Assembly (NCBI GenBank): GCA_024641005.1
Contig: JAHEDX010000020.1
Location: forward strand, 1 to 54,524
DNA from: Acidimicrobiaceae bacterium
GTDB taxonomy: Bacteria; Actinomycetota; Acidimicrobiia; Acidimicrobiales; Ilumatobacteraceae
Direction: 5' to 3'
DNA length: 54,524 nucleotides
The position numbers and the translations under genes were made by a program. Each line of letters opens with the position of its first letter. Position 1 is the stretch's first letter. Of the stretch, positions 116-49,815 are shown one piece after another. The notes under the pieces were generated by a model. It saw nothing but the letters and a program-made list of their open reading frames with translations. It was not told where the DNA came from and ran no database searches.

Positions 116-1436
116 GCATGGCGAGCGTCAACGACGTGGCCACCGCTGCGACCGCTGCCGGTAGCACCATCCGACGAAGTGTCGGCGTGCTGATGGTCCA
201 CACCAGCGCTCCCTTCACGAGGGTGTTCGATGCGGCGGCGAGCACGATCGCCGTCGATGCGGTCGAGTTCGACAGTTCGCCGTTGCCTCGACTCAGTTCT
301 GCCATCGACAGCGTGATCGCATCGACGTCGGCGACCCCGGACACGAGGGCGCCGGCATAGACGCCAGTTTCGCCCAGCCACATCGAGAGCGCTTTCGAAC
401 CGATCAGGACCACGCCGTACAGCAACCCGAACTGGATCGCCGGACCGAGACTGAAGGGGTTCGAGAACCGCTCTTCGCCGTGGCCGCCGTCACCCACGTC
501 CTTGCGCCGCAATGAGACGAACAGTGCCCACGTCGCCGTGCACAGGCCGCCGATGCCGATCGGCAGGACGACGTGACGGAGCAACCCGGGGTTCACGACT
601 CCGACCTCGACGAGGACTCGGCCGTACATGATCGCCCACGCGAGCAGGATCGCCGTCGCGAGCGCCCGCAGCAGCCCAGCGCTCGACTTGCTCCGCTCAC
701 TCATCGTGAGGGTGACCGCAGTCGACGAAACGAGCCCTCCCAGGATCCCGGTCAGCCCGATGCCGCGACGCGCTCCGATGATCTTGATGAGCACGTATCC
801 CAGGAACGACAAGCCCAGGATGAACACGACCATGAGTCCGATCTTGAATGGGCTGGCTGCGTCGAATGGCGCCTGCCCGATCGGGTCGCGTGGCAGCACC
901 GGCAACACCAGCACCACCAACACGGCGAACTGGACCGTCGCCTCGACGTCCTGCCGATCGAGATGAGCGACGAAGCTCCGGGTGTACGGCTTGGCGGCCA
1001 GCAGCGCTGTCGTCGCAACGGAGACGGCTGCGGCCAGGGTGAGTTCGCCGATCCCTGCCAGTGCCCCGGCGAGGAACGTGACGATCGCTGCCAACTCGGT
1101 GGTCACGCCGTGCGATCCGTCACCCGTATTGGCGATGCGCCCGATCGCGATCACTGCGCCGACCACGAGCAATGTGCCGGTGAACACCCCGACACTGTCG
1201 AACCGGTCGGCGAGGAGTGCGCCCAGTCCTCCGCTCAGGCCGATCAGTGCGAACGACCGTGCGCCGGCGAACAGGTCGGCGCCGACGCCCTGTTTGGCGA
1301 ACTGTCGCTGCAATCCGACGAGCAGACCGATGGCCAGCGCGACACCGAGGCGCCCGAGGACACGATCGTCCCCGAGCTCGTCGAGCACGTCGTCGGGTGG
1401 TGCAACAGCCACGAGGCCGGAGACGAAACCAACCAC
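108..1436 (-). CDS. MgtC/SapB and DUF4010 family integral membrane protein
   Basis: A 442-residue protein with about twelve hydrophobic segments. The N-terminal part (residues 30-150, with LGVALAIGLLVGLQRQ) matches the MgtC/SapB fold, and the C-terminal part (about 190-440, including GLTGILGGLVSSTAVTLTMS and SGVADVDAITLSMA) matches DUF4010. The biochemical role of this family is not settled; transport or Mg-related homeostasis is often guessed. The GTG start at 1434-1436 is supported by TACCGT (minus strand, 1443-1448) six bases upstream and no ribosome binding site. It is divergent from the glycosyltransferase at 1513 and ends inside a GGTCA repeat. Confidence 0.85.
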   Translation of the reverse strand: MVGFVSGLVAVAPPDDVLDELGDDRVLGRLGVALAIGLLVGLQRQFAKQGVGADLFAGARSFALIGLSGGLGALLADRFDSVGVFTGTLLVVGAVIAIGRIANTGDGSHGVTTELAAIVTFLAGALAGIGELTLAAAVSVATTALLAAKPYTRSFVAHLDRQDVEATVQFAVLVVLVLPVLPRDPIGQAPFDAASPFKIGLMVVFILGLSFLGYVLIKIIGARRGIGLTGILGGLVSSTAVTLTMSERSKSSAGLLRALATAILLAWAIMYGRVLVEVGVVNPGLLRHVVLPIGIGGLCTATWALFVSLRRKDVGDGGHGEERFSNPFSLGPAIQFGLLYGVVLIGSKALSMWLGETGVYAGALVSGVADVDAITLSMAELSRGNGELSNSTASTAIVLAAASNTLVKGALVWTISTPTLRRMVLPAAVAAVATSLTLAMLT

Positions 1437-1442
1437 GATTCG

Positions 1443-1448
1443 ACGGTA
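1443..1448 (-). promoter_or_regulatory. -10 hexamer TACCGT, leaderless start of DUF4010 gene
   Basis: TACCGT on the minus strand, then six bases (CGAATC), then the GTG start. No Shine-Dalgarno is present. It fits the window-wide leaderless pattern. Confidence 0.6.
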
Positions 1449-1500
1449 CCCCGATCGAGGTCTTCGAATCAGGGTCGTTCGTCCCGGCCTGTTCGGCGGG

Positions 1501-1506
1501 CATGAT
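1501..1506 (+). promoter_or_regulatory. -10 hexamer CATGAT, leaderless start of first GT4 gene
   Basis: CATGAT, six bases, then GTG at 1513. The same CATGAT plus six-base layout precedes the SDR gene at 6890. It decides the GTG start over longer upstream reading. Confidence 0.55.
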
Positions 1507-1512
1507 GGAGCG

Positions 1513-4968: not shown

Positions 4969-4974
4969 TAGCCT
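4969..4974 (+). promoter_or_regulatory. -10 hexamer TAGCCT, leaderless start
   Basis: TAGCCT, seven bases, then GTG at 4982. There is no ribosome binding site in the gap. It separates the histidine-rich protein from the glycosyltransferase operon. Confidence 0.6.
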
Positions 4975-6877: not shown

Positions 6878-6883
6878 CATGAT
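6878..6883 (+). promoter_or_regulatory. -10 hexamer CATGAT, leaderless start of SDR gene
   Basis: CATGAT, six bases (GGGGTC), then GTG at 6890. It supports GTG 6890 rather than the in-frame ATG at 6902. Confidence 0.55.
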
Positions 6884-7789: not shown

Positions 7790-7792
7790 TCG

Positions 7793-9864: not shown

Positions 9865-10066
9865 TGTGGTTCCTATGGTCTGCAGTCGGCGCAGACCACG
9901 GTACTCGGTCGACGTTTTCATGGATCAGCAGACAGCGCAGCAGCCGACGGATCCGGTCGCTCGGTGGATGTATGCCCCCGATCGCTCGGCGGCATCCACG
10001 ATGGGCACGGGAACCAGGGTCGCCTCGTAGACTCGCCCCGTTCCACACAATGAGGAGATCTGCAAG
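9865..10066. promoter_or_regulatory. Divergent intergenic region with gmd -10 and SD
   Basis: The 202-base spacer lies between divergent glycosyltransferase and gmd genes. For gmd a -10-like TAGACT is at 10028-10033 and a Shine-Dalgarno GAGGAG lies at 10052-10057, so gmd has a true 5' leader unlike most neighbours. No clear -10 (T/C)ANNNT was seen within ten bases of the minus-strand start. No small gene is evident. Confidence 0.55.
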
Positions 10067-12447: not shown

Positions 12448-12580
12448 GAGAGTGTCGAGGCTACCCGTCGACCCAGCGCTCGCGCAGGACGGGCGGTGGA
12501 ATGGGCTTCGTCATCCGGCAGCGATCGCAGCGGCGCACAGGTTCCGCGCGCCCGCGTACCGGGTGGATGACGTCAGATCG

Positions 12581-13108: not shown

Positions 13109-13114
13109 TAGCCT
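13109..13114 (+). promoter_or_regulatory. -10 hexamer TAGCCT, probable leaderless start of GT2 gene
   Basis: TAGCCT, nine bases, then GTG at 13124. No ribosome binding site is seen. Confidence 0.5.
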
Positions 13115-36051: not shown

Positions 36052-36057
36052 CGGATC

Positions 36058-36924: not shown

Positions 36925-37072
36925 ACCTGTGGCGGGTCCGGGGTCGACCGCCGCTCGGTGTGGCAAACGGCACACGAGCCTCAGGAATGTCTCAAGATCT
37001 TCGCTGTTGCATCCGATACAAGGATCGACAAGGTAGCCGGACGGAAACACGGCTCACCGAACGGAGAGAACC

Positions 37073-37267
37073 ATGACCACATTGTTGAACGAACAGATCG
37101 AAACCGGTGACGTGATCGAAGTGATCCGCGGCGCCGACGTCGTCAGCGCTCTGGTGCTCCTGGCTGCCGACGAGGCCGTGATCCTCGACGCGTGCGACGG
37201 TTCCACCCCATTCGTCCTCAAGCGTGACGAACTGACCGAATACCGCAAGTTCGTTCCTTCGGCCTGA
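37073..37267 (+). CDS. Small conserved-looking protein, unknown function
   Basis: A 64-residue acidic protein with alternating hydrophobic residues suggesting a small beta barrel (DVIEVIRGADVVSALVLLA, then EAVILDACDGSTPFVLKRDE). I do not recognise a family. A clear SD (GGAGAG) lies seven bases before the ATG and codon use matches the neighbours, so it is very likely real. The 148-base region upstream contains no other gene. It may be an SH3-like or Sm-like adaptor, but this is speculation. Confidence 0.75.
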   Translation: MTTLLNEQIETGDVIEVIRGADVVSALVLLAADEAVILDACDGSTPFVLKRDELTEYRKFVPSA

Positions 37268-37299
37268 TCCGCCATCTGAACACACCCGAGTTCTCCCCC

Positions 37300-37305
37300 T
37301 AAGCT
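37300..37305 (+). promoter_or_regulatory. -10 hexamer TAAGCT, leaderless start of haemoglobin gene
   Basis: TAAGCT, seven bases, then GTG at 37313. The gap has no SD. Confidence 0.6.
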
Positions 37306-37312
37306 GGGCGCC

Positions 37313-37753
37313 GTGACTTCCGAGTCAACGGCGCCCAGCTTGTTTTTCCGAGCCGGCGGGCAACCATTCTTCGACCAACTCGTCGGCGTGTTCTACGAGG
37401 GCATCTCGACCGACGACCTGCTCGCGCCCCTGTATCCCGACTTTCCCGACTTCGAGCCGGCGAAGCATCGGCTGAGCCTGTTTCTCGCGCAGTACTGGGG
37501 TGGGCCCACCACGTACATGGAAGAACGCGGGCATCCCCGGCTACGGATGCGACACTTCCCGTTTCATGTCGGCCCGCTCGAACGCGACCGATGGTTGCTC
37601 CACATGGCCACGGCCGTCGAGCGGGTGTGCGCCGGGCGGGCAGACGGAGCCGAACTCGCCGACGAGCTGATGGGCTATTTCGTGCCCGCGGCCGAACACC
37701 TCCGCAACGACACCGGCCTGCCGATCACGTCGGCCGGATACGGAAAGAGCTGA
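37313..37753 (+). CDS. glbO: Group II truncated haemoglobin (TrHbO type)
   Basis: A 146-residue 2-over-2 globin. The proximal haem ligand is H81 in LRMRHFPF, distal Tyr at B10 in VFYEG (F27-Y28), and Trp at G8 in RDRWLLHM (W94), the residues that define group II. YWGGPTTYMEERGHPRLRM is the conserved E-F region. These proteins bind O2 and NO and help with oxidative or nitrosative stress or respiration. The next gene, an ABC ATPase, starts three bases after the stop, so both are probably on one transcript. Confidence 0.92.
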   Translation: MTSESTAPSLFFRAGGQPFFDQLVGVFYEGISTDDLLAPLYPDFPDFEPAKHRLSLFLAQYWGGPTTYMEERGHPRLRMRHFPFHVGPLERDRWLLHMATAVERVCAGRADGAELADELMGYFVPAAEHLRNDTGLPITSAGYGKS

Positions 37754-37755
37754 CC

Positions 37756-38664
37756 GTGGCGGTCGTCGAGGTTCGCGATCTGCGCAAGCGCTACGGAGAC
37801 ATCGATGCCGTCGCCGGGGTGTCCTTCGAGATCGCGGCGGGTGAGGTGTACGGACTGCTCGGCCAGAACGGTGCCGGCAAGTCGACCACCGTGGAGATCC
37901 TCGAAGGACACCGTCGTGCGACTGCGGGCTCGGTTTCGGTACTCGGCAACGATCCGGCCCAGAGCGGGCGCGAATTTCGCGACCGGATCGGCATCGTGCT
38001 GCAATCGTCGGGGGTCGAGCAGCAGCTCACCATCCGCGAGGCACTGCGCTTCTACGGCTCGTGCTACCGCGATCCTCGTCCGATCGACGACGTCGTCGAG
38101 ATGGTCGGGCTGACCGAGAAGATCGACGCCCGTATCGGCACGCTCTCGGGCGGCCAGCGTCGAAGGATCGACCTTGCGCTCGGCATCATCGGGCGCCCTG
38201 AGCTGTTGTTCCTCGACGAGCCGACCACCGGATTCGACCCGGTCGCTCGCCGCGAGTCGTGGAAACTCGTTCAGCGCTTGTGTGAAGGAGGCACCACGGT
38301 ATTGCTCACGACGCACTACCTCGACGAGGCCGAACACCTGGCCGATCGGGTCGGGGTGCTCGCCGGTGGACGTCTGATCGCCGAAGGAACACCAGATGAG
38401 TTGATGGCGGCCGCTCCCGATGCCACCATCTCGTTCGAGTTGCCGGCCGCCACGTCGAGCGATGAGTTGCGCATCCCTTCGACAGCATCGATCGAGGCCG
38501 GCGTGGTTCGCATCGAGACCGAGTTCCCAACCGCGGTGTTGGCGGAGATCACGGCCGCGGCCGTCGAGCGGGGGGTCGAGTTGGTCGGGCTCAGCGTTCG
38601 GCGGCCTTCGCTGGAAGACGTCTTCCTGCAGCTCGGCAACGACAGCGGCGAGGCGCCCGGATGA
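37756..38664 (+). CDS. ABC-2 exporter ATP-binding protein (DrrA-like)
   Basis: A 302-residue ATPase: Walker A GQNGAGKST (about 36-44), signature LSGGQRRRIDLALG (about 131-144), Walker B LLFLDEPTTGFD and the C-terminal extension of DrrA-type subunits ending LEDVFLQLGND. It energises export through the permease encoded next. The substrate (drug, polyketide or lipid) is unknown. GTG 37756 is three bases after the haemoglobin stop. Confidence 0.9.
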   Translation: MAVVEVRDLRKRYGDIDAVAGVSFEIAAGEVYGLLGQNGAGKSTTVEILEGHRRATAGSVSVLGNDPAQSGREFRDRIGIVLQSSGVEQQLTIREALRFYGSCYRDPRPIDDVVEMVGLTEKIDARIGTLSGGQRRRIDLALGIIGRPELLFLDEPTTGFDPVARRESWKLVQRLCEGGTTVLLTTHYLDEAEHLADRVGVLAGGRLIAEGTPDELMAAAPDATISFELPAATSSDELRIPSTASIEAGVVRIETEFPTAVLAEITAAAVERGVELVGLSVRRPSLEDVFLQLGNDSGEAPG

Positions 38665-39497
38665 ACTGGCCCTCGACACTCAAACTGGTCGGCGAACAGA
38701 CGAGATACCAAGTGCTCACGTTCATGCGCAGCCCGGTCGGCCTGTTCTTCACGATCGGTCTCCCGCTGTTCATGCTCGTGTTGTTCAACGCCCTCTTCGG
38801 GGATGGCACGGTCGATACTCCGGCGGGTTCGTGGTCGGTGCAGCAGTTCTACACCGGTGGGCTCGCTGCGTTCACCGCAGTGTCGGCCACCTACACCAAT
38901 CTGGTCAACATGGTGCCGATCCGGCGCGACGACGGCATCTTGAAGCGCTGGCGTTCGACGCCGATCCCTCCGTCGGTGTACCTCACGGGTTGGATTCTCG
39001 GTGCACTGTCGATTGCACTGCTCGGTGTCGTTCTCCAACTGACGCTCGGCGTGGTCGCCTACGACCTCACGATCGATGTTGCGAAGGTGCCTGCCATGGT
39101 CGTCACGTTCGTGATCGGGGTCGCCGCGTTCGCTGCGCTCGGCCTGGCAGTGGCCGGCCTCGTGCCAAATGCCGACTCGGCACCAGCTGTCGCCAACGCC
39201 ACGATCCTGCCGCTGGCATTCGTGTCCGACATCTTCATCCCGCTCGAGAATCCGCCGCGCTGGCTCGATCTGATCGGCGACATCTTCCCCTTGAAGCCGT
39301 TCGTGAACTCGTTCCAGAACACGCTCAATCCACTGGTCGACGCGCCCGGGTTCACCTGGGACAAGATGGCCGTGGTCATCGCCTGGGGCATCGTGGGCGT
39401 CGCGGTGGCGCGTTCGTCGTTCAGCTGGGAACCGTCGACCAGCGGCTCGCGGCGCGACCGGCGTCGTCGCAGTCGCACGACGTCGGCCGCGATATAG
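38661..39497 (+). CDS. ABC-2 type exporter permease
   Basis: A 278-residue six-helix permease with SPVGLFFTIGLPLFMLVLFNALFG as helix 1 and a helix pair before the conserved DIFIPLENPPRWLDLIGDIFPLKPF segment of DrrB-type subunits. The start overlaps the ATPase stop (ATGA), so the pair forms one exporter. The last 25 residues are very Arg/Ser-rich and cytoplasmic. It converges on the methyltransferase gene with 29 bases between. Confidence 0.88.
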   Translation: MNWPSTLKLVGEQTRYQVLTFMRSPVGLFFTIGLPLFMLVLFNALFGDGTVDTPAGSWSVQQFYTGGLAAFTAVSATYTNLVNMVPIRRDDGILKRWRSTPIPPSVYLTGWILGALSIALLGVVLQLTLGVVAYDLTIDVAKVPAMVVTFVIGVAAFAALGLAVAGLVPNADSAPAVANATILPLAFVSDIFIPLENPPRWLDLIGDIFPLKPFVNSFQNTLNPLVDAPGFTWDKMAVVIAWGIVGVAVARSSFSWEPSTSGSRRDRRRRSRTTSAAI

Positions 39498-39526
39498 GCC
39501 CACCGCTCACTGGGTGATGCTCTGGC

Positions 39527-40396
39527 TCAGGCCAGCGCGAAGCAGGCGATCGCCGCGGCCGCAGCAGCGTTGAGAGAGTCGACGCCGGCCGCCATCGGTA
39601 TGCGTACCGGTCGGGCGATCGCGAGCACCTCGTCACTGAGGCCGGCGCGCTCGGATCCGATCACGATCGCTCGGCGGCCCGCCGGGTCCAACCGGCCGAT
39701 GTCGGCGGCGAGCGGATCCGGGGTGAGCGCGAACACGTCCCGGTCGGTCATCGCCCGCAGTTCGTCGACGAGGTTGCCGGTGCGGGCATGGGGAACCGAG
39801 AAGGCAGTGCCCATCGCGACGCGCAGTGCACGACGCGACAGCGGATCGGCACTGGTGTGGTCGAGCAGGACGCCGTCCCAGCCGAGGGCAGCTGCGTTGC
39901 GGATGATCGAGCCGATGTTCGCGGGGTTGTCGACACCCTCGATGACGACCAGGCGCGCGCTCCGCTGAGCGAGTTCGGAAGCGGTCGGTCGGGGTGGCCG
40001 ATGGAAGAGGGCGATCACCGAGTGCAGGACGCCGAGCCCGGCGACGAGTCGCCGCACCTGGTCGCCACCGACGAACACCTCGCCGCCGCTGCGGACGAAC
40101 CGGTCGGCGACGCCAGGTATCCGCGAACCGTCGACGAGTGCTCGGAACGGTCGACAGCCGGCGTCGAGTGCCCGCTGGACGACGAGATCGCCCTCGGCGA
40201 GGAACAGACCGGCTCCGGCGTCGTCGCGCTTGCTGCGACGATTGGCCAGGCCGCGCTCGTTGAGCCGGAAGGTGGCGAGTCGTTCGTCGTCGAGTTCCTC
40301 GATCGTGACGAACGGGCCGGCACCGGCCCCACGACGCGAGTCAGTAGAAATAGGGGAAGCCTGACCAGTCGGGAGTGCGCTTCTCGAGGAAGGCAT
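39527..40396 (-). CDS. TrmH/SpoU family RNA 2'-O-methyltransferase
   Basis: A 289-residue SPOUT methyltransferase. The three motifs are NPANIGSIIRNAAALGWDGV, IVIGSERAGLSDEVL and IPMAAGVDSLNAAAAAAI. The N-terminal half fits the substrate-binding region of rRNA SpoU enzymes. It probably methylates a ribose in rRNA or tRNA with SAM. The start is uncertain: ATG 40396 lies inside the end of menB, and no ATG, GTG or TTG is available after it before the conserved region; ATT at 40349-40351 is possible. It is translated with menB through this overlap. Confidence 0.85.
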   Translation of the reverse strand: MPSSRSALPTGQASPISTDSRRGAGAGPFVTIEELDDERLATFRLNERGLANRRSKRDDAGAGLFLAEGDLVVQRALDAGCRPFRALVDGSRIPGVADRFVRSGGEVFVGGDQVRRLVAGLGVLHSVIALFHRPPRPTASELAQRSARLVVIEGVDNPANIGSIIRNAAALGWDGVLLDHTSADPLSRRALRVAMGTAFSVPHARTGNLVDELRAMTDRDVFALTPDPLAADIGRLDPAGRRAIVIGSERAGLSDEVLAIARPVRIPMAAGVDSLNAAAAAAIACFALA

Positions 40397-41249
40397 CCCG
40401 GCCTTCGGCTGCTTCCTCGCTGGCGTAGGCGAGTCGTGTCGCCTCGCCGGCAAAGATCTGCTGGCCCACCAGACCGTCGTCGATCAGATTGAAGGCGTAC
40501 TTGAGCATGCGTTGGGCTGTCGGGCTCTTGGCACAGATCTCGGCGGCCCATTCGAGTGCGGTCGCTTCGAGGTCGGCGTGAGGCACGACGGCATTGACGC
40601 CGCCCATCTCGTGCATCTGTTGAGCTGTGTATTCGCGACCGAGGAAGAAGATCTCACGGGCGAACTTCTGGCCGACGAAACGGGCAAGGTAGGCGGATCC
40701 GAATCCGCCGTCGAAGCTCGCCACGTCGGCATCGGTTTGCTTGAACCGGGCGTGCTCCTCGCTGGCGATCGTGAGGTCGCACACGACATGCAGGCTGTGA
40801 CCGCCCCCTGCAGCCCAGCCCGGCACGACGCAGATGACGACCTTGGGCATGAACCGGATCAAGCGCTGACACTCGAGGATGTGGAGGCGACCGGCCCGGC
40901 CGGCCTCGATTGTGTCGGCGGTTTCGCCGTCGGCGTACTTGTACCCGTCCTTGCCGCGGATGCGCTGGTCACCGCCCGAACAGAAGGCCCAGCCACCATC
41001 GCGCGGCGATGGACCGTTGCCGGTGAGCAGGACGCAGCCGATGTCGCTCGACATGCGAGCGTGGTCGAGCGCGGTGTAGAGCTCGTCGACCGTGTTGGGA
41101 CGAAAGGCGTTGCGGATCTCGGGACGGTTGAAGGCGATTCGCACGGCGCCGACATCGTTGGCACGGTGATAGGTGATGTCGGTGAAGGCGAAACCGGCGA
41201 CCTCCGTCCATGCCGACGGGTCGAAGATCTCCGAGACGGACGTGCTCAT
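40341..41249 (-). CDS. menB: 1,4-dihydroxy-2-naphthoyl-CoA synthase
   Basis: A 302-residue crotonase-fold cyclase of menaquinone synthesis. MenB features include ITYHRANDVGAVRIAFNRPE, FCSGGDQRIRGKDGYKY (about 93-109), VPGWAAGGGHSLHVVCDLT, DVASFDGGFGSAYLARFVG with the conserved Asp/Gly region, and the C-terminal EKRTPDWSGFPYFY. It closes the second ring of the naphthoquinone. No other men genes are in the window. The ATG follows CAACAT (41256-41261, minus) by six bases with no SD. Confidence 0.94.
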   Translation of the reverse strand: MSTSVSEIFDPSAWTEVAGFAFTDITYHRANDVGAVRIAFNRPEIRNAFRPNTVDELYTALDHARMSSDIGCVLLTGNGPSPRDGGWAFCSGGDQRIRGKDGYKYADGETADTIEAGRAGRLHILECQRLIRFMPKVVICVVPGWAAGGGHSLHVVCDLTIASEEHARFKQTDADVASFDGGFGSAYLARFVGQKFAREIFFLGREYTAQQMHEMGGVNAVVPHADLEATALEWAAEICAKSPTAQRMLKYAFNLIDDGLVGQQIFAGEATRLAYASEEAAEGRDAFLEKRTPDWSGFPYFY

Positions 41250-41275
41250 GGCCCTATGTTGGCCGCGCCGCGAGG

Positions 41276-41746
41276 TCACATCGCAATTCGACACGAGGTC
41301 GCACCGCGCAGGCGCGACCGCAGCGCCCAACTCATCAGCACGACCGACAGCACGGCGAGCATCGGCTGTGCAGGAGCGAACCAGTCGAGCGCGCCGGTCG
41401 AACCCAGTGCGATGACGGCGACCTTGTTGCAGGTGGGGCAGCCGACTGCGAAGAACGAGAGCAACCCACCGAGACCGCCCGCCTTTCCCGGTGTGCCGAG
41501 CTCGTCGTCGGGTAACTCGATCGTGCTCTGGACGTCGTCGATGCGAACATACGTGGCAGCCAACAAGCCGCCCAGTACGGCGCTGACGACGAGACTCGGG
41601 TACGACCACCAGGTGACCTCGACCGGCCGTCCGAACACCGGGTTCGGGATGACATCGGTCGGGAGTCCGATCACGAGCGCGACCACGACCGAGGCGCCCA
41701 GGGCGAAGATCCATCGGCGCGCCGGCCAGTTGGCGAGTTCGTGCAC
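41276..41746 (-). CDS. Four-helix membrane protein with CPTCNK motif, unknown function
   Basis: A 156-residue protein with about four hydrophobic helices. After the second or third comes GLGGLLSFFAVGCPTCNKVAVIALG, with a Cys-x2-Cys (about C113 and C116) close to the membrane, then a helix of VLSVVLMSWAL and an Arg-rich end. C-P-T-C within a membrane protein suggests thiol or metal chemistry, for example vitamin K cycle-like or copper-linked proteins, but I cannot assign a family. The GTG start follows TACCAT (41754-41759, minus) by seven bases. Confidence 0.7.
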   Translation of the reverse strand: MHELANWPARRWIFALGASVVVALVIGLPTDVIPNPVFGRPVEVTWWSYPSLVVSAVLGGLLAATYVRIDDVQSTIELPDDELGTPGKAGGLGGLLSFFAVGCPTCNKVAVIALGSTGALDWFAPAQPMLAVLSVVLMSWALRSRLRGATSCRIAM

Positions 41747-41753
41747 GGTGATG

Positions 41754-41759
41754 ATGGTA
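41754..41759 (-). promoter_or_regulatory. -10 hexamer TACCAT, leaderless start of CPTC membrane protein
   Basis: TACCAT (minus), seven bases (CATCACC), then GTG at 41746. It selects a start 23 residues downstream of the longest reading. Confidence 0.55.
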
Positions 41760-41790
41760 GCGACAGTCGCCGTGACGACGCGGTCGGCGC

Positions 41791-41796
41791 TACGGT
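41791..41796 (+). promoter_or_regulatory. -10 hexamer TACGGT, leaderless start of fbiB
   Basis: TACGGT, six bases (TCGCCC), then GTG at 41803. Confidence 0.6.
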
Positions 41797-41802
41797 TCGC
41801 CC

Positions 41803-42543
41803 GTGCCCGCTGCACTGACGATCATTCCTGTCGACGGTCTGCCCGAGATCGAGTCGGGTCACGACATCGCCGCACTGGTCGCCGATCGGATCGAACTGTT
41901 CGACGGCGACATCGTGGTCATCACCTCGAAGATCGTGTCGAAGGCCGAAGGATGTGCGATCGAACTCGCGACGGTCGAGCCGTCGGGGTTCGCCACCGAG
42001 TGGGCCGAACGGTGGGAGAAGGATCCACGAGTGGTCGAAGTGGTGTTGCGCCAGTCGCAGCGGATCGTCCGCCAGATCGGGCCGGTCCTGATCACCGAGA
42101 CGCATCATGGGTTCGTGTGCGCGAACTCAGGGGTCGACCAGTCGTCGAGTGGGGCCCACGAACGGATCCTGGTCTTGCCGTCCGACCCGGATGCGTCGGC
42201 GCGACGATCCCGCGCCCGGTTCGCTGAACTCGGCGTCGATGTCGGGGTCGTCGTCACCGACACGTTCGGGCGGCCGTGGCGTGAGGGCCAGACCGACATC
42301 GCGATCGGTGTCGCGGGTATCAATCCGCTGCTGAGCTATATCGGTCAACAGGACCCCCACGGGCACGAGTTCCGGGTGCAGGAGATCTGCGTTGCCGACG
42401 AGCTGGCGGCGGCCTCAGAGCTGGTGAAGGGCAACACCTCTCGTGTCCCGGTAGCGGTCATCCGCGGCTACGAGTGGGAGGCCGATGAGTCCGCGTCGAT
42501 GGCGCCGGTGATTCGCGACTCGAGTCGCGACCTGTTCCGCTGA
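41803..42543 (+). CDS. cofE: Coenzyme F420-0:L-glutamate ligase (CofE type)
   Basis: A 246-residue ligase that adds glutamates to F420-0. The family is recognised by VDGLPEIESGHDIAALV, VVITSKIVSKAEG (about 36-48), THHGFVCANSGVDQSS (about 100-115), VVVTDTFGRPWREGQTDIAIG (Asp and Arg rich) and ICVADELAAASELV. Mycobacterial FbiB is longer, with a C-terminal nitroreductase-like domain; that part is absent here, so the final dehydro-F420 reduction must be supplied elsewhere. GTG start with leaderless -10. It is divergent from the CPTC membrane protein and separated from fbiA. Confidence 0.93.
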   Translation: MPAALTIIPVDGLPEIESGHDIAALVADRIELFDGDIVVITSKIVSKAEGCAIELATVEPSGFATEWAERWEKDPRVVEVVLRQSQRIVRQIGPVLITETHHGFVCANSGVDQSSSGAHERILVLPSDPDASARRSRARFAELGVDVGVVVTDTFGRPWREGQTDIAIGVAGINPLLSYIGQQDPHGHEFRVQEICVADELAAASELVKGNTSRVPVAVIRGYEWEADESASMAPVIRDSSRDLFR

Positions 42544-42558
42544 CGCGCGGCCCGTGCA

Positions 42559-42593
42559 GAGTTACGAAACGTGCCTGGCACGTTTCGTAACTC
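42559..42593. repeat. Perfect 17-bp inverted repeat with one-base centre
   Basis: GAGTTACGAAACGTGCC (42559-42575), T, then GGCACGTTTCGTAACTC (42577-42593). All 17 bp match. It lies 15 bases after the cofE stop and 42 before the hydrolase start. A hairpin this tight with no T-tract is unusual for a terminator; it could be a palindromic dispersed unit, a cruciform or a dimeric-protein site. Confidence 0.9.
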
Positions 42594-42622
42594 GTGCTGC
42601 GACCGGATCCTCGGGTGATGAG

Positions 42623-42628
42623 TACGGT
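42623..42628 (+). promoter_or_regulatory. -10 hexamer TACGGT, leaderless start of hydrolase
   Basis: TACGGT, six bases (TCGGGA), then ATG at 42635. It shows that the in-frame reading upstream through the palindrome is not translated. Confidence 0.6.
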
Positions 42629-42634
42629 TCGGGA

Positions 42635-43435
42635 ATGGGTTCTGGCCACGGCATGCACGCACATCCCGCCGACGACGTCTCGATCGACTACTTCGCGGCA
42701 GGGGAGGGGCGTTCACTGGTCTTGGTGCACGGCATCACCGAGAGTCGTCGCACCTGGGATCCCTTGCTGGCGCCGTTGATCGCGTCGGGATACCGGGTGG
42801 TCGCGATCGATCTTCGCGGACACGGCGCATCGTCAAAGGTCGCGCCGTACGACCTGGCCACCATGGCCGGTGACCTCGGCGCCGTCCTGGCACAGGAGGG
42901 GCTCGATGACGCCCTGTTGGTGGGCCACTCGCTCGGTGGTGCGGTCGTGTCGGCCTACGCGGCCGGCGGTCCGTGCAGAGGAGTGATCAATGTTGACCAA
43001 CCACTCGCACTGAGCGGTTTCAAAGACGTTCTCGGTCAGCTCGAGCCGATGCTGAAGGGTGGCTCCGACGAGTTCCAGGGCGCGATCTCCGCGATCTTCG
43101 ACCAGATGGCCGGTCCGCTCGAGGGTTCCGAGCGCTGGCGGGTCGATCACATCCGAGATGCCGACCAAGGGGTGGTGCTGGGTGTGTGGGATGCGATCTT
43201 CGCGTCGTCGGTGGCCGAGCTCGACGCCATGATCGATGCAGTGGCGGGGGCGATCACGGTTCCGTATCTCTCGTTGCACGGCATCGATCCCGGCCAGGGC
43301 TATACAGATTGGCTGCGTGCACGTGTCGACACCTCGATCGTCGAAGTGTGGCCCAACCTGGGCCACTACCCGCACCTGATCGACCAGCACCGTTTCGTCG
43401 AGCGCGTGACTGCGTTCGACGAGTCGATCGGTTGA
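42635..43435 (+). CDS. Alpha/beta hydrolase
   Basis: A 266-residue alpha/beta-fold hydrolase. The oxyanion region HGITESRRTWDPLL (about 35-48), DLRGHGAS, the nucleophile elbow VGHSLGGAVV (Ser near 99), an acidic residue in LHGIDPGQ and the final His in NLGHYPHLI are in order. The substrate is unknown; the sequence resembles esterases and haloperoxidase relatives. ATG 42635 is chosen by the leaderless -10; ATG 42653 is the alternative. It converges on the NERD-like gene with 31 bases between. Confidence 0.88.
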   Translation: MGSGHGMHAHPADDVSIDYFAAGEGRSLVLVHGITESRRTWDPLLAPLIASGYRVVAIDLRGHGASSKVAPYDLATMAGDLGAVLAQEGLDDALLVGHSLGGAVVSAYAAGGPCRGVINVDQPLALSGFKDVLGQLEPMLKGGSDEFQGAISAIFDQMAGPLEGSERWRVDHIRDADQGVVLGVWDAIFASSVAELDAMIDAVAGAITVPYLSLHGIDPGQGYTDWLRARVDTSIVEVWPNLGHYPHLIDQHRFVERVTAFDESIG

Positions 43436-43466
43436 CGGGCACCACTCGCGTTGGCGACAGGCGTGC

Positions 43467-44045
43467 TCAGGCGAGGGGATCTGGGCGGCCGATCGCCGTG
43501 AGCACGGTCTGCCAGGCGAGGTCGACCTGCGCCGGCGAAAGCTCACGGTCGGCGAGTGCCTCGATCCACCCGGTCAGCGACCGGCCGTCGACGGCGGTGA
43601 GGCCCGGCATCAGGTCGCTCGAACCGCTCGTGCCGGCACCCCAGTACACGCGGACCAGCCGATCGCTCGACATCGCGCAGCGGCCCAGTGCGTCGTCGAG
43701 GCTGCCCCGTACGATCGCCGCTGCCGCGACAGCGTGTGGATCGAGCTCGCCGGTCGGAGCGGTGGGGAGGGCATCCATCGAGGTCTGGAACGCGAATACC
43801 CCGGCCGGTCCCACCACCACGTGCTCGATGCCGCCGAGCTTGTCGTGAGCGATCTCGTACACGACACGCCATGGGGGCGTTGCCAGGTCGCGGAGTGCGT
43901 TGCTGGTGAGCCTGGCGGCGGGCGCCGCGATGACGTCGTCGCCCGAACTCGCGTCGGCGTTCTTGAGGTTCTTCTTGGCCCAGGCGAGCGCTACGGGCAC
44001 TCCGATGGCGATCACGAGCAGGGGTATATAGATTCCAGGGCCCAT
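43467..44045 (-). CDS. Membrane-anchored NERD-like protein, probably inactive
   Basis: A 192-residue protein: an N-terminal helix (about 5-22), then a segment WRVVYEIAHDKLGGIEHVVV followed by GPAGVFAFQTS that resembles the nuclease-related NERD core (IDHIVVGPxGVFVIEVK). The catalytic E-x-K is replaced by Q-T-S and the Asp by Glu, so nuclease activity is doubtful. The rest looks like an alpha/beta domain of unknown role. CAAAAT (44055-44060, minus) lies nine bases before the ATG. The family call is tentative. Confidence 0.6.
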   Translation of the reverse strand: MGPGIYIPLLVIAIGVPVALAWAKKNLKNADASSGDDVIAAPAARLTSNALRDLATPPWRVVYEIAHDKLGGIEHVVVGPAGVFAFQTSMDALPTAPTGELDPHAVAAAAIVRGSLDDALGRCAMSSDRLVRVYWGAGTSGSSDLMPGLTAVDGRSLTGWIEALADRELSPAQVDLAWQTVLTAIGRPDPLA

Positions 44046-44089
44046 CGCTCAGCGATTTTGGCACGTCGAGCGGGACGATTCGGTGATTC

Positions 44090-44491
44090 TCAGGCTTCGA
44101 CGACCTGGATCAGGGTCTGCATGTGGTGCTCGGTCAGGTGGTTGTCGACGAGGCAATTGAGCTGATAGATCCCCGGTTCGTCGAGATCGACGGTGATCGT
44201 GAGCACATCGCCGGGTGCGACCGCGCTCGCCGTTTCGATCGCCAGCCCGTCCGGTCCGACGATCTGCAGATCGTGGTTGAGCGTGCCGGCGTTCTCGGCC
44301 TCGAACGTCACGCGATCCCCGGTCATGAACGTCGGCACCTCGCCGACAGCGATGTAGCGGTACTGGTCCTCGTGATCTTCCATTCGCAACTCGACGGTGT
44401 AGCTGCGAGCCGGGTCGTCACCGTCGCTGCCGCAACCGGTGACGCCGAACACAGCGAGAGCGAGCACGAGACCGAGTCGGCGGGTTTGCAT
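44090..44491 (-). CDS. Cupredoxin-like lipoprotein
   Basis: A 133-residue lipoprotein: a signal peptide with lipobox GVTGC (C20), then one beta-barrel domain. Candidate copper ligands are H73 (LNHDLQ), C113 (LNCLVDNH), H118 and M124, close to type 1 copper-site spacing but with a longer C-to-H gap than plastocyanin. It may pass electrons outside the cell or store copper. The ATG follows TATCTT by six bases. It lies beyond the phn genes but has its own promoter. Confidence 0.82.
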   Translation of the reverse strand: MQTRRLGLVLALAVFGVTGCGSDGDDPARSYTVELRMEDHEDQYRYIAVGEVPTFMTGDRVTFEAENAGTLNHDLQIVGPDGLAIETASAVAPGDVLTITVDLDEPGIYQLNCLVDNHLTEHHMQTLIQVVEA

Positions 44492-44497
44492 GCCGAC

Positions 44498-44503
44498 AAG
44501 ATA
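44498..44503 (-). promoter_or_regulatory. -10 hexamer TATCTT, leaderless start of cupredoxin
   Basis: TATCTT (minus), six bases (GTCGGC), then ATG at 44491. It is the closest to the canonical -10 in the set. Confidence 0.65.
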
Positions 44504-44560
44504 GTTCCTGATGGCACTGGAGTTCCCGGACGGTCCGTATAGGCCGGGTCACCGTTCACT

Positions 44561-44591
44561 CTGGTCGAGAGCTGGTCGAGAGCTGGTCGAC
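44561..44591. repeat. 11-bp tandem repeat downstream of phnE
   Basis: CTGGTCGAGAG twice (44561-44571, 44572-44582) followed by a partial third CTGGTCGA. It lies just after the stop of the second phn permease gene, between it and the cupredoxin promoter. Confidence 0.85.
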
Positions 44592-44596
44592 ACCGA

Positions 44597-45532
44597 TCAG
44601 TCGTTGGGCTTGTTCGGCCTCATGATCGAATCGCCGAGCAGCAGGCCTGCGAGTGCCTCGGTGCTGGCGTTGTGATCATCATCGTCGATCTTGCGTCCGC
44701 TGCCGGCGATGATGCGTCGGCGTGCGAACCCTGAGATCGTGTCGATGATCAAGACCATTGCGATCACCATCAGCAAGACCGCTCCGACTTGCGGGAAGTT
44801 GCGGAAGTTGAGCTGCGAGACGAGTTCGCCGCCGATTCCGCCGGCGCCGATCAGGCCCAGAACAGCCGACGCGCGAACATTGATCTCGAAGCGGAACAGC
44901 CAGTAGCCGATCACGGTGGGCAGGACCTGGGGGACCATGCCCCAGCGCATCTTCTCGATGAACGTTCCCCCCGCTGCCGAGATCGCCTCGAGCGGACCCT
45001 CGTCGGAGGTTTCGATGACCTCGGTCGAGAGCTTGCCGAGCGTGCCGACCGAGTGCAGCCCGATGGCCAGTGCCCCGGCCCATGGTCCGAGCCCGGTGAC
45101 GGTGAGCAACAGCATCGCGACGATCAGTTCGGGGACGGCCCGAATCGCGTTGAACAGCAGGCGGATCGGGACTCTGAGGGCTGCCGGGGCCACGTTGCTC
45201 GCCCCGAAGAACGAGAGTGGGAACGAGATGATGGCCCCGATCATCGTGCCGATCCATGCCACGTACAACGATTCGAAGATCTTGCCGACGGCACCGCGGT
45301 CGACCACCGTCTTGAAATCCGGGGGCCACATCTGTTTGACGATGTTCCAGCCCTTGCCGGGAGCGTCGAGGACGTCCTGGAACGATGCATCGAGCCCGGT
45401 CCACGACCACATCGCCGCAATGATGATCGCAGCGGTGATCCCGATCCTCCAGTTGCGGGCAGCCATCGGCCGTTCGGGGCGCCCGGTCGGCGGGTCCGAT
45501 TGCTCGGGGACGATCACGTCGGCGGCGGTCAT
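44597..45532 (-). CDS. phnE: Phosphonate/phosphite-type ABC permease, second copy
   Basis: A 311-residue PhnE-like permease. After a cytoplasmic start and a helix (about 30-47) comes the EAA loop region (EVIETSDEGPLEAISAAGGT then GMVPQVLPTVIGYWLFRFEINVR), with further helices to about residue 280. It ends in a 45-residue charged tail. ABC components PhnD-PhnC-PhnE-PhnE are typical for phosphonate or phosphite import. The start overlaps the first permease stop (ATGA). Confidence 0.9.
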   Translation of the reverse strand: MTAADVIVPEQSDPPTGRPERPMAARNWRIGITAAIIIAAMWSWTGLDASFQDVLDAPGKGWNIVKQMWPPDFKTVVDRGAVGKIFESLYVAWIGTMIGAIISFPLSFFGASNVAPAALRVPIRLLFNAIRAVPELIVAMLLLTVTGLGPWAGALAIGLHSVGTLGKLSTEVIETSDEGPLEAISAAGGTFIEKMRWGMVPQVLPTVIGYWLFRFEINVRASAVLGLIGAGGIGGELVSQLNFRNFPQVGAVLLMVIAMVLIIDTISGFARRRIIAGSGRKIDDDDHNASTEALAGLLLGDSIMRPNKPND

Positions 45533-48456: not shown

Positions 48457-48548
48457 CGATCCTCCATCAGGGTTGTTCACGAGCATTGAGCTGCCCGTGA
48501 TGGGATGTGCACGCGTGCCCCACCGGATGACAGGGCTCGCTTTCGACC

Positions 48549-49133
48549 CTACCCTGCCGTCGCGGACGCTCGAAATCCCTCGACCTCGCGTTCGAACTCG
48601 ACCCAGTCGTTGACGTCGACTGCGCCTGGATGCGAAGTGCTCCAGGGGCGGACGTATCTGCACACGAGCGACGAGGGTCTGGCGTTGAGCAGCGCCTCGA
48701 TGTTGTGGTCGGCATCGTCGAGGTACACGTCGCAGTCGACCTCCGACTTGTCGTCGACGATGTGCACCTCCGTGGTCGGGACCCGGTGCTCTGCCAGCCA
48801 CTCGAAGGTGTCGTGCACTGCGAAGCGTGGCTTCGTGGTGACGATCACGACGTGATCGCGCCTGCTCAGACGATCGAGTGCCTCGATCGCGCCGTGGTAG
48901 GGCTGCAGCACGCGGAAGATCGAGGCGCCGCCACCTGCGGTGCGGGCCCACGACCAGAACTCGCTCATGTCGGTGAAGTGGGTGAGCAGCGTGGGGGCGT
49001 CCCAGATGTCGACGTGTTCGGGCAGCAGATCCGAACCGAACTGTGTGTTGTACCGATCGATCCAGCCGGCGTTGAAGTCGGCGACCACGCCGTCGAGGTC
49101 GATGCCGAGCCGGAGCCGCAAGCGTTGCGTCAT
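48549..49133 (-). CDS. HAD-family 5'(3')-nucleotidase-like protein
   Basis: A 194-residue HAD protein similar to the NT5C deoxyribonucleotidase group. Motif I is LGIDLDGVVADF (about 8-19), the middle holds VVIVTTKPRFAVHDTFEWL, and motif IV-type acidic residues are in CDVYLDDADHNIEALL. It probably removes phosphate from nucleotides or small phosphoesters. It is divergent from a paralogue at 49159, with 25 bases between starts. The ATG follows CAGAGT (minus) by six bases. It lies upstream of phnD on the same strand but 92 bases away. Confidence 0.85.
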   Translation of the reverse strand: MTQRLRLRLGIDLDGVVADFNAGWIDRYNTQFGSDLLPEHVDIWDAPTLLTHFTDMSEFWSWARTAGGGASIFRVLQPYHGAIEALDRLSRRDHVVIVTTKPRFAVHDTFEWLAEHRVPTTEVHIVDDKSEVDCDVYLDDADHNIEALLNARPSSLVCRYVRPWSTSHPGAVDVNDWVEFEREVEGFRASATAG

Positions 49134-49139
49134 GCGACA

Positions 49140-49152
49140 ACTCTGGCAGGCT
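49140..49152. promoter_or_regulatory. Back-to-back leaderless -10 hexamers between HAD genes
   Basis: Minus-strand CAGAGT (49140-49145) is six bases from ATG 49133; plus-strand CAGGCT (49147-49152) is six bases from GTG 49159. The two -10 sites are separated by one base, so each -35 region lies inside the other gene. Confidence 0.5.
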
Positions 49153-49158
49153 GGGCAC

Positions 49159-49815
49159 GTGGCGACGACCTCGAACGCGTTCATTCTCGGTGTCGACCTC
49201 GACGGTGTGGTCGCGAACCACACGTGGAGGTTCCGCGAGATCATGGCCGAACTGCGAGGCGTCGATCCCGAGACGATGCCGATCGAGAGGTCGTGGGACT
49301 TCCACGAATGGGGCTTCGGGCCCGACGAATACTCGCACTACCACCGCATCGCCGTGATGGAGCACGACATGTTCCGCACGATGCCCGTGATCGACGGAGC
49401 TGCGGACGCGCTGTGGCGCTTGTCCGATGCCGGAATCTGGATCCGCATCATCACGCATCGTCTGTACGTGCACTGGGGGCACGAGAAGGCGGTGGCCGAC
49501 ACCGCGGCATGGTTGGACGCGAACCGGATCCCGTACCGCGATCTGTGCTTCCTCGGGGCCAAGCCACAGGTCGAGGCCGATGCCTACCTCGACGATGCTC
49601 CGCACAACATCGAGCAACTGCGAGCGGCCGGCAACGTGGTGATCGCCTTCGAACAGCCCTACAACCGGCAGATCGTCGATGGCCCACGGGCCAGATCGTG
49701 GGGCGAGGTCGAGGAAATGGTCATCGAGTTGGCGGCGGGTCAACTCGGCCAACTACAGGCGCAGCTCCCCGGAATCGATGCGGGCGCCGACCGCATCGAC
49801 CAGCATCACCGGTGA
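49159..49815 (+). CDS. HAD-family 5'(3')-nucleotidase-like protein, divergent paralogue
   Basis: A 218-residue HAD protein paralogous to the divergent gene. Motif I is LGVDLDGVVANH (about 9-20), with Asn in place of the second-block Asp of the paralogue. WIRIITHRLYVHWGHEKAVADTAAWL is the middle motif and EADAYLDDAPHNIEQLR the acidic motif. A phosphatase role on nucleotides or phosphoesters is inferred from the family. GTG 49159 is preferred over ATG 49132 because of the -10 layout. Confidence 0.83.
   Translation: MATTSNAFILGVDLDGVVANHTWRFREIMAELRGVDPETMPIERSWDFHEWGFGPDEYSHYHRIAVMEHDMFRTMPVIDGAADALWRLSDAGIWIRIITHRLYVHWGHEKAVADTAAWLDANRIPYRDLCFLGAKPQVEADAYLDDAPHNIEQLRAAGNVVIAFEQPYNRQIVDGPRARSWGEVEEMVIELAAGQLGQLQAQLPGIDAGADRIDQHHR

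Follow-up and report, generated by a model that had tools for sequence, protein, structure and literature searches.

Sequence evidence for probable leaderless mRNAs from -10-only promoters in an Acidimicrobiaceae genome and its class

The window, the whole 54,524-nucleotide stretch of DNA analyzed here (contig JAHEDX010000020.1), from an Ilumatobacter-like member of the Acidimicrobiaceae, contains genes whose start codons are closely preceded by a (T/C)ANNNT hexamer. A sequence-only reading had cited 13 such sites as leaderless starts, and all 13 hold up: the hexamer lies 6 to 8 nt ahead of an ATG or GTG (gap of 6 at eight sites, 7 at four, and 8 at one), and five Shine-Dalgarno (SD) 5-mers, sought 3 to 11 nt upstream, were found at 0/13. 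On the minus strand, TACCGT (1443 to 1448) lies 6 nt before GTG 1436 of an MgtC/DUF4010 gene and is divergent with CATGAT (1501 to 1506, plus strand), 6 nt before GTG 1513 of a glycosyltransferase gene. Likewise, TACCAT (41754 to 41759, minus), 7 nt before GTG 41746 of a gene for a 156-aa protein, is divergent with TACGGT (41791 to 41796, plus), 6 nt before GTG 41803 of cofE. The ftsH gene has TAGCAT (20503 to 20508, minus) 6 nt before ATG 20496, and TACGGT (20620 to 20625, plus) lies 7 nt before GTG 20633 of a gene for a 73-aa DUF3499 protein (PF12005, Pfam). The remaining cited plus-strand hexamers are TAGCCT (4969 to 4974), 7 nt before GTG 4982 of a hypothetical gene (model P(L) 1.00); CATGAT (6878 to 6883), 6 nt before GTG 6890 of an epimerase gene (P(L) 0.30); TACGAT (26257 to 26262), 8 nt before GTG 26271; TACGGT (36046 to 36051), 6 nt before GTG 36058 of an enoyl-CoA hydratase gene (P(L) 0.97); TAAGCT (37300 to 37305), 7 nt before GTG 37313 of a truncated globin gene; and TACGGT (42623 to 42628), 6 nt before ATG 42635 of an alpha/beta hydrolase gene. 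On the minus strand, TATCTT (44498 to 44503) lies 6 nt before ATG 44491 (P(L) 0.98).

Hexamers absent from that list precede several further genes: TAGCCT (12458 to 12463, minus), 10 nt before GTG 12447 of a MurJ-like gene (P(L) 0.77); TAGCCT (13109 to 13114, plus), 9 nt before GTG 13124 of the gene for a 1,144-aa GT2 protein (P(L) 0.92); TACCCT (20860 to 20865, plus), 8 nt before GTG 20874 of a CAAX protease gene (P(L) 0.99); and TAGGCT (30240 to 30245, plus), 10 nt before ATG 30256 of secA. CAGGCT (49147 to 49152, plus) lies 6 nt before a candidate re-set GTG at 49159 to 49161 of an NT5C nucleotidase gene, whose Pfam domain starts 24 nt past that GTG; this arrangement accounts for the end, at 49161, of the range originally given for the signal. 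SD leaders had been reported for four genes and are present in all of them: an SD-like GGAGAT (10054 to 10059, plus) before GTG 10067 of gmd, the SD GGAGGAGA (27901 to 27908, plus) before ATG 27918 of ahcY, the SD GGAGG (48461 to 48465, minus) before ATG 48456 of a phnD-like gene, and an SD-like GGGGGA (49957 to 49962, plus) before ATG 49967 of the oligopeptide SBP gene. TACGGT and CATGAT had been said to recur, which is true of their positions before starts; neither is overrepresented in the window as such (7 observed versus 8.4 expected and 32 versus 25.5, respectively, on both strands).

A terminator-like inverted repeat includes the globin hexamer within its left arm. A simple scan of positions 36001 to 45000 returned no -35/-10 promoters of the sigma-70 type and two terminator-like sites, neither of them this hairpin, which has a 13-base loop, longer than the scan allows. 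A megablast search of 5.1 kb against plasmids gave no match, and a search of the genome for 16S found none.

Enrichment was measured from blind starts, which a gene caller had set without regard to upstream sequence. In the window, YANNNT at a gap of 6 to 10 nt preceded 10/30 unit-first starts and 0/11 operon-internal starts, with 1/30 and 0/30 unit-first starts in controls shifted to gaps of 16 to 20 and 26 to 30; the DUF3499 gene was overlooked by the blind caller and so is outside the 30. When starts could be rechosen, TANNNT was found at 14/30 unit-first starts versus 2/30 and 3/30 in the shifted controls (internal, 0/11), and YANNNT at 19/30 versus 8/30 and 6/30 (internal, 2/11). A lone CANNNT site found by rechoosing is therefore weak, since YANNNT is then frequent at irrelevant distances. 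As had been proposed, the hexamer re-sets several starts: the blind caller placed those of the ftsH, 26271, globin, 41746, 42635, and NT5C genes elsewhere. Relatives back the re-set starts of the ftsH, globin, 41746, and 42635 genes and, in part, that of the 26271 gene, for which the hexamer is present in 8/13 relatives (from the best 80 of 575 ftsH loci) and the new N terminus is basic and then hydrophobic.

The same pattern extends to samples of the organism's own genome (G000, window included) and of a congener (G001). TANNNT at a gap of 6 to 10 nt preceded 26/142 and 50/233 blind unit-first starts, respectively, and 2/52 and 3/64 internal starts. A motif fitted from a TANNNT seed became T(.67)/C(.23) A N N N T(.91), the gap being 6 to 8 nt in most cases; its share was 0.36 in G000 and 0.46 in G001 (internal genes, 0.08 and 0.06), and five column-permuted matrices each gave 0.015 to 0.095. 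Free fitting overfits small samples: in 80-kb samples it returned shares of 0.16 (G189) and 0.23 (G167) where a fixed model gives 0, and it was abandoned because the class so found is spurious. We surveyed 17 Actinomycetota with the fixed model, namely, nine Acidimicrobiia (G000 and G001 included) and eight others, together with Escherichia coli. Unit-first genes divided into 0.35 leaderless, 0.36 SD, and 0.29 neither in G000 and into 0.41, 0.29, and 0.30 in G001. The leaderless share of such genes was 0.23 to 0.58 across the nine Acidimicrobiia, 0 to 0.29 in the eight other Actinomycetota, and 0.00 both in the E. coli sample and when the hexamer was moved 10 nt further up. Over all genes it is estimated at 0.26 for G000, 0.32 for G001, and 0.15 to 0.38 over the nine. 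The hexamer is nearly confined to unit-first genes, as its proposed tie to transcription unit starts predicted, with internal shares of 0.05 (G000) and 0.03 (G001); internal genes also score in some small samples, namely, G210 (0.38 of 12), G014 (0.18 of 10), G009 (0.12 of 19), and G089 (0.11 of 42). A plasmid of Deinococcus deserti, the intended positive control, gave a share of only 0.06, with SD-like leaders at many annotated starts, and proved a poor control.

Among the starts classed as leaderless, ATG or GTG was used by 43/43 in G000 and 87/88 in G001, TTG being permitted at a penalty, and an SD 4-mer preceded 1/43 and 14/88. No -35 consensus was found in these 43 and 88 promoters. The view that such starts are the default for ordinary genes gains only partial support and goes too far: this class about equals or somewhat exceeds the SD class and, at 0.35 and 0.41, is no majority.

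We compared 23 window genes with 80 ftsH loci, the best of 575 matches; six genes had no match, and those at 5845 and 6890 had no usable locus. Loci with no match, a late match, an open frame, or no ATG/GTG candidate were dropped, and the counts are not independent events, since near relatives are included. Among the usable loci of these best 80, the hexamer was present in 75/75 for ftsH (gap of 6 in 56), 76/76 for the DUF3499 gene, 56/58 for the GT2 gene (gap of 9 in 48), 47/59 for PGM, and 26/26 for secA (gap of 10 in 23), versus 5/75, 0/76, 6/58, 1/59, and 3/26 at control gaps of 15 to 20. In the same 80 loci, the SD-led ahcY gave only 1/50 (control, 2/50). Permuted motifs were sometimes high in these loci (TNNNAT, 70/75 for ftsH and 20/26 for secA; TNANNT, 20/76 for the DUF3499 gene), in the TNNNAT cases because hexamers such as TAGCAT also fit that pattern. 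Lower counts from the best 80 of 575 were obtained for the MurJ-like gene (TANNNT in 30/45, gaps of 7 to 10), the CAAX protease gene (24/66), the SD-led gmd (17/43, with one permuted control reaching 12/43), and a gene for a 957-aa protein (0/4 usable loci); the enoyl-CoA hydratase gene had no match there. Glycosyltransferase queries 1513 and 8752 gave identical counts in 9 loci (6/9), probably from the same genes, and were excluded. In wider searches, confined to the best 30 among all matching genomes, the hexamer was found class-wide in 28/30 for the DUF3499 gene and 24/28 for secA, TANNNT was found order-wide in 12/28 for globin (shift control, 3/28) and only 2/28 for cofE, and ahcY gave 0/27 phylum-wide.

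Nearer comparisons used genus loci, two of which (L126 and L369) are one and the same G001 place. Own locus included, CATGAT stood at a gap of 6 in 3/3 loci for the 1513 gene (P(L) 0.26) and was present in 4/7 for the 6890 epimerase gene (three at a gap of 6, one at 9); to the model alone, both of these CATGAT sites are ambiguous. TACGGT preceded cofE in 5/5 usable loci, own included and the G001 place counted twice, and TANNNT at a gap of 6 or 7 preceded the 41746 gene in 3/3 usable loci out of 7, these being its own and the one G001 place twice. For the 42635 gene, TANNNT was found in 6/6 loci, own included, at gaps of 6 and 8. Of two congener loci for the 1436 gene, one had TACCGT before a GTG that lies 39 nt away from where the start was expected, and the other had none.

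Across relatives the gap is gene specific: 6 for ftsH, 6 or 7 for the DUF3499 gene, 8 or 9 for PGM, 9 for GT2, and 10 for secA. In these five genes, the spacer between hexamer and start has drifted in sequence like its surroundings (identity, 0.34 to 0.42 versus 0.32 to 0.39 in the 25 nt above the hexamer) and its length has been held. By contrast, the stretch separating the hexamers of the divergent ftsH and DUF3499 genes varied between 32 and 215 nt and took 44 different lengths in 74 loci. These data indicate that the putative leaderless signal of the core genes ftsH and secA is old and held by selection.

Blind enrichment, the fixed model, and orthologues thus all support a leaderless promoter grammar as read from sequence. 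We consider it very probable that these genes are transcribed from -10-only promoters, of a known kind, into mRNAs with no leader or almost none, in a class strongly committed to them; in roughly one transcription unit in three, the promoter appears to lie close enough to the start codon that the mRNA would begin on it or a few bases away. The hexamers would serve as the -10 elements of promoters of the housekeeping type that lack a recognizable -35 box, lying so near the coding frame that RNA polymerase would start on, or a few bases from, the A or G of ATG or GTG, yielding an mRNA with neither leader nor SD. The start codon would then double as the transcription initiator, a -1 pyrimidine followed by RTG, and ribosomes would take these mRNAs via the 5'-terminal RTG, as in mycobacteria. 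We infer both the transcription start at RTG and the leaderless translation. In 14 genomes (G122, G167, and G189 of the 17 omitted), a pyrimidine occupied -1 before 114/163 of the blind TANNNT starts, compared with 331/624 of the remaining starts (P = 1.3e-4), as expected if the R of RTG is the transcription start; weak differences occurred at -5 (P = 0.017) and -6 (P = 0.032), and composition at -2 to -4 did not differ. C at -1 was significant in G000 alone (P = 0.0007) and not in G001 alone (P = 0.08).

A translational signal, whether an AT-rich, low-structure element or a non-SD ribosome site, would fit the place of the hexamer in the SD position and the missing SD 5-mers at the cited starts; however, such a signal should also precede operon-internal genes, where the shares are 0.05 and 0.03 (0/11 in the window), and the A at position 2 and T at position 6 correspond to the invariant bases of a -10 box, so that this account is hardly credible. 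Recurrent hexamers among the 43 G000 promoters (TAGCCT in 9 and TACGGT in 4) might suggest the regulon of one transcription factor or alternative sigma factor instead of a general promoter, but the gene functions are unrelated, the signal marks 0.23 to 0.58 of unit-first starts in nine genomes, and no second conserved box was seen; we regard a regulon as very unlikely. Chance hexamers combined with freedom in start choice could explain some lone CANNNT sites, given the 8/30 and 6/30 free-choice YANNNT matches at irrelevant distances, but the blind-start and orthologue tests refute chance as a general account, leaving it next to no probability.

A fairly unlikely reading is that the -10 boxes are real and that, at least at gaps of 9 and 10, transcription begins 2 to 5 nt before the start codon, giving a short fixed leader. 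The constancy of the secA gap (10 in 23/26) and the GT2 gap (9 in 48/56) in the best 80 of 575 ftsH loci is consistent with this, as are the GT2 spacers, with a purine at hexamer +7 in 0.88 (40 distinct) preceded by C in 0.55, and 16 gap-9 promoters from 14 genomes (purine at +7, 0.81). Gaps of 6 and 7, the commonest, leave little room for a leader, however, and the secA spacers are all but free of purines at +7, +8, and -1 (0.00, 0.06, and 0.00; 16 distinct), which points to the A of ATG, or a G sometimes at -2, as the start. With leaderless initiation retained as the general reading, secA and GT2 might still have a fixed leader of 2 to 4 nt in place of zero. A tentative and rather doubtful extension is that polymerase start-site choice and start codon position are coselected gene by gene: some long-gap genes, secA among them, would clear purines from the usual start distance and so keep initiation on the RTG, and others, such as GT2, would retain a leader of about 3 nt that sets the translation rate.

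A discriminator rule drawn from ftsH versus secA, with G after the hexamer at short gaps and C at long ones, failed in 213 promoters from the 14 genomes (G at +1 in 31/76 at gaps of ≤6 versus 28/69 at gaps of ≥8, P = 1.0). The third hexamer base did vary with gap (C:G, 41:18 at ≤6 and 8:17 at ≥9; P = 0.003), in a post hoc result from about 10 looks. An inverted repeat over the start was rejected as a general device (1/43 and 1/88 leaderless starts, 0/87 and 3/104 others, 0.2 to 0.6 in shuffles; starts of intermediate probability omitted).

Zheng et al. (2011, PMC3160421) described TA-led genes in Actinobacteria and Deinococcus-Thermus, similarly with TANNNT about 12 bp upstream, a middle that is degenerate in high-GC genomes, and SD-led genes alongside. 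Their actinobacterial average of 19.2% (2.3 to 29.8) is only loosely comparable with our all-gene share of 0.15 to 0.38, because the methods differ; the word Acidimicrobi is absent from the main text of that paper. Mycobacterial leaderless promoters likewise have a TANNNT -10, no -35, and C or T at -1 (Cortes et al. 2013, PMC3898074; Shell et al. 2015, PMC4633059). As reported there, C or T is common at -1 and +2 around a purine start, a 5'-end RTG is necessary and sufficient, leaderless transcripts make up 26% of the genes that have a primary start, and about 73% (71/97) are common to two species; that evidence comprises 5' ends, ribosome profiling, and reporters, whereas ours is sequence. 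In Deinococcus-Thermus, a -10 motif lies 6 to 7 bp before about one-third of ORFs (Life Sci Alliance 2025, PMC12340547), with a similar spacing requirement, reannotated starts, and RBS-led genes alongside; that work is experimental and in another phylum, and a -35 region enhances expression there, whereas none was seen here. Our analysis would extend the actinobacterial leaderless habit to a large class known chiefly from metagenomes, in whose genomes start calling should take the promoter into account. The gene-specific distances would constitute a natural experiment on how start-site choice by the polymerase and start choice by the ribosome are linked.

Mycobacterial ribosomal-protein and energy genes avoid leaderless starts (PMC3898074, PMC4633059), a tendency probed here through codon adaptation alone. 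The suggestion that SD leaders are reserved for highly made proteins found no support from this measure, and secA and ftsH are hexamer led. Median adaptation in G000 was 0.606 for leaderless and SD genes alike (P = 0.75); in G001, there was a modest difference (0.576 versus 0.633, P = 0.007). In both samples, adaptation was lowest for genes with neither signal.

Gene starts were called with a custom caller that used only codon usage and start-codon type, and genes with a divergent neighbor or a gap of at least 40 nt were treated as the first of a transcription unit. With these blind starts, in 278 kb of the window's own genome (G000) and 400 kb of a complete congener genome (G001), TANNNT peaked 6 to 10 nt before the start codon of unit-first genes, occurring there at 26/142 unit-first versus 2/52 operon-internal starts in G000 and at 50/233 versus 3/64 in G001. 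Within the window alone, YANNNT preceded 10 of 30 unit-first starts, compared with 1/30 and 0/30 at shifted distances, and 0/11 internal starts. All 13 sites cited in the sequence-only reading as having a (T/C)ANNNT hexamer shortly before ATG or GTG matched their description, and a Shine-Dalgarno (SD) 5-mer was present at 0/13.

A three-class model (leaderless, SD, or neither), which allowed start re-choice and was seeded with TANNNT, converged on T/C-A-N-N-N-T with gaps to the start codon of mostly 6 to 8 nt, the same pattern as had been proposed. The fitted leaderless share was 0.36 (G000) and 0.46 (G001) at unit-first starts and 0.08 and 0.06 at internal starts; five column-permuted matrices gave 0.015 to 0.095. 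With a fixed matrix, the shares were 0.35 (5-95% bootstrap, 0.27-0.43) and 0.41 (0.35-0.48), with 0.05 and 0.03 for internal genes, 0.00 when the hexamer was required 10 nt further upstream, and 0.00 in an E. coli sample.

The window was taken as DNA of an Ilumatobacter-like member of Acidimicrobiia. Its 54,524 bases make up one entire contig of a 4.14-Mb draft genome (175 contigs, 65.7% G+C); the top FtsH match among named genomes was "uncultured Ilumatobacter sp." (89% identity), and the titles of the remaining 79 of the best 80 of 575 matching ftsH loci were mostly Ilumatobacteraceae, Acidimicrobiaceae, or Actinomycetota. The gene set is ordinary (glycosyltransferases, gmd, ftsH, a DUF3499 gene, phosphomannomutase, ahcY, secA, a release factor, the F420 genes cofD and cofE, a globin, and ABC transporters).

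In these 80 loci, with per-gene drops, we scored TANNNT ending 5 to 10 nt before the candidate start, with the same motif at 15 to 20 nt as the distance control. The hexamer preceded ftsH (ATG 20496, minus strand) in 75/75 loci (control, 5/75), the DUF3499 gene (GTG 20633) in 76/76 (0/76), the GT2 gene (GTG 13124) in 56/58 (6/58), secA (ATG 30256) in 26/26 (3/26), PGM in 47/59 (1/59), the MurJ-like gene in 30/45 (3/45), Trm112 in 27/54 (1/54), the gene at 26271 in 8/13 (0/13), the CAAX protease in 24/66 (4/66), and ahcY in 1/50 (2/50); it preceded the ComF-like gene in 0/29 relatives. For gmd (GTG 10067), which is SD led in the window, TANNNT was found in 17/43 relatives (control, 0/43), and leader type may thus change within one orthologue family. 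Permuted motifs at 5 to 10 nt were mostly low, with exceptions: TNNNAT was high for ftsH (70/75) and secA (20/26) because hexamers like TAGCAT fit both patterns, TNANNT reached 20/76 for DUF3499, and TTNNNA reached 12/43 for gmd. In class-wide sets, TANNNT preceded DUF3499 in 28/30 and secA in 24/28; order-wide, it preceded the globin gene in 12/28. For cofE it was present in genus loci yet in just 2/28 order-wide; the globin, cofE, and ComF-like counts speak against conservation.

The ftsH and DUF3499 genes are divergent (20496-20633), with two hexamers back to back, a pair kept in 74 loci; further divergent pairs lie at 1436/1513 and 41746/41803. The ftsH spacer was 6 nt in 56 of 75 loci, 7 nt in 17, and 9 nt in 2, whereas the stretch between the two hexamers took 44 different lengths across 74 loci, the shortest being 32 nt and the longest 215 nt. 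Therefore, indels are common nearby but seldom kept between hexamer and start codon. Mean identity was 0.40 among distinct ftsH spacers and 0.36 in the 25 nt above the hexamer. Downstream of the leaderless ATG, the FtsH N terminus (20455-20496, minus strand) carries a proline run from about codon 5, which recurs in several relatives. A second, more distant DUF3499-like frame lies in the own genome (contig 113, 13754-13957), and all ten family genomes examined had two DUF3499 matches each.

The hexamer has the two invariant bases of a -10 box, A (position 2) and T (position 6), and a -35 consensus was not apparent in 43 and 88 promoters. Among blind starts of 14 genomes, a pyrimidine stood at -1 in 114/163 hexamer starts versus 331/624 other starts (P = 1.3e-4); positions -2 to -4 did not differ, and -5 and -6 differed weakly. 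Purine shares at -1 in relatives were 0.11 (gap 6) and 0.07 (gap 7) for ftsH, 0.11 and 0.18 for DUF3499, 0.13 and 0.00 for Trm112, 0.03 for GT2, 0.00 for secA, and 0.00 for PGM at gap 8; the exceptions were PGM at gap 9, a smaller set (0.55), and the MurJ-like gene at gap 8 (0.50). According to the available text of PMC3898074, preferred start sites in Mycobacterium tuberculosis are purines with a pyrimidine just before them and T at +2. Since RTG (ATG or GTG) supplies both R and T, the start codon most likely also acts as transcription initiator: polymerase would initiate on the R, and translation would proceed from the 5' RTG by analogy with mycobacteria (PMC4633059, in extract). The leaderless reading stands as far as sequence can tell.

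The kind is already known. In the portions available, the same pattern is described by Zheng et al. 2011 (PMC3160421), who place TANNNT some 12 bp upstream and count 19.2% of actinobacterial genes, as well as for M. tuberculosis (PMC3898074), at 26% of the genes that have a primary start, and for D. radiodurans (PMC12340547). The StartLink+ paper, in extract, cites predicted leaderless transcription of up to 40% of transcripts in 21.6% of bacterial species (PMC9581028). "Leaderless" together with "Ilumatobacter" returned nothing in the open-licence literature; in the accessible parts, PMC10783764 names the class Acidimicrobiia only in an anti-SD table, and PMC11061730, matched by "leaderless" and "Acidimicrobi," concerns sterol degradation.

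The fixed matrix gave shares of 0.35, 0.41, 0.37, 0.58, 0.39, 0.23, 0.43, 0.29, and 0.43 in nine Acidimicrobiia samples (own included) and 0.18, 0.29, 0.21, 0.29, 0.00, 0.16, 0.00, and 0.29 in eight other Actinomycetota, with wide intervals outside G000 and G001, where samples were 80 kb with 34 to 55 unit-first genes each; the AT-rich sample G122 (34% G+C) is less reliable. A shifted-hexamer control gave at most 0.03 in each of 19 samples. Internal genes also scored in some 80-kb samples (G210, 0.38, n = 12; G014, 0.18, n = 10). A D. deserti plasmid, the intended positive control, gave 0.06 and has SD-like leaders before many annotated starts. Leaderless genes had been proposed as the default; they make up a third to two fifths here and a majority in one of the nine Acidimicrobiia samples.

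By a small reference set (9 and 10 genes, mostly ribosomal-protein loci), leaderless and SD genes had the same median codon adaptation in G000 (0.606, P = 0.75), and in G001 the medians were 0.576 and 0.633, respectively (P = 0.007); genes with neither signal had the lowest medians (0.579 and 0.549). Given the equal G000 medians and the leaderless signal at secA and ftsH, the suggestion that SD leaders are kept for highly made proteins is not supported, although in G001 they may lean towards them.

Hexamer-to-start gaps were kept per gene in the ftsH loci (ftsH, 6; DUF3499, 6-7; PGM, 8-9; GT2, 9; secA, 10), with those of the MurJ-like gene spread over 7 to 10. Among 16 distinct secA spacers, a purine stood at +7 in 0 and at +8 in 0.06, so that the first purine near the usual distance would be the A of ATG, or a -2 purine in about half; the GT2 spacers instead mostly have a purine at that first position (+7; 0.88 of 40), which could be the sign of a 3-nt leader. 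Start-site choice by the polymerase and start-codon position might then be co-selected gene by gene, through purine clearing at secA and a leader of about 3 nt at GT2. We consider this rather unlikely; drawn from few genes and related sequences, it is a lead only. Ten gap-10 promoters from 14 genomes did not look like secA (purine shares of 0.40 at +7, 0.30 at +8, and 0.60 at -1), which argues against a general rule and made the co-selection reading slightly less likely. A discriminator rule failed to explain the gene-specific distances. Across 213 promoters of the 14 genomes, the third hexamer base was mostly C at short gaps and mostly G at long ones (C:G, 41:18 versus 8:17; P = 0.003, post hoc).

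CATGAT, which stands ahead of the start codon at 1501 and at 6878, recurs there in relatives of both genes, which are unrelated to each other (3/3 and 4/7 loci, counting the window's own); it is followed by GG in 3/3 and 3/7 and is perhaps a -10 variant. At 37301-37347, an inverted repeat with perfectly matched 14-bp arms precedes a T run (fold, -38.3 kcal/mol; z, -4.4). Its left arm covers the bulk of the hexamer, then the spacer and the beginning of the globin GTG (37313). A transcript begun at this GTG would be without most of the left arm, and the hairpin could therefore halt read-through while sparing the leaderless mRNA. In G001 the stem is identical and the loop different. Of 131 starts classed as leaderless and 191 others, this was the sole one with a repeat arm of >9 bp.
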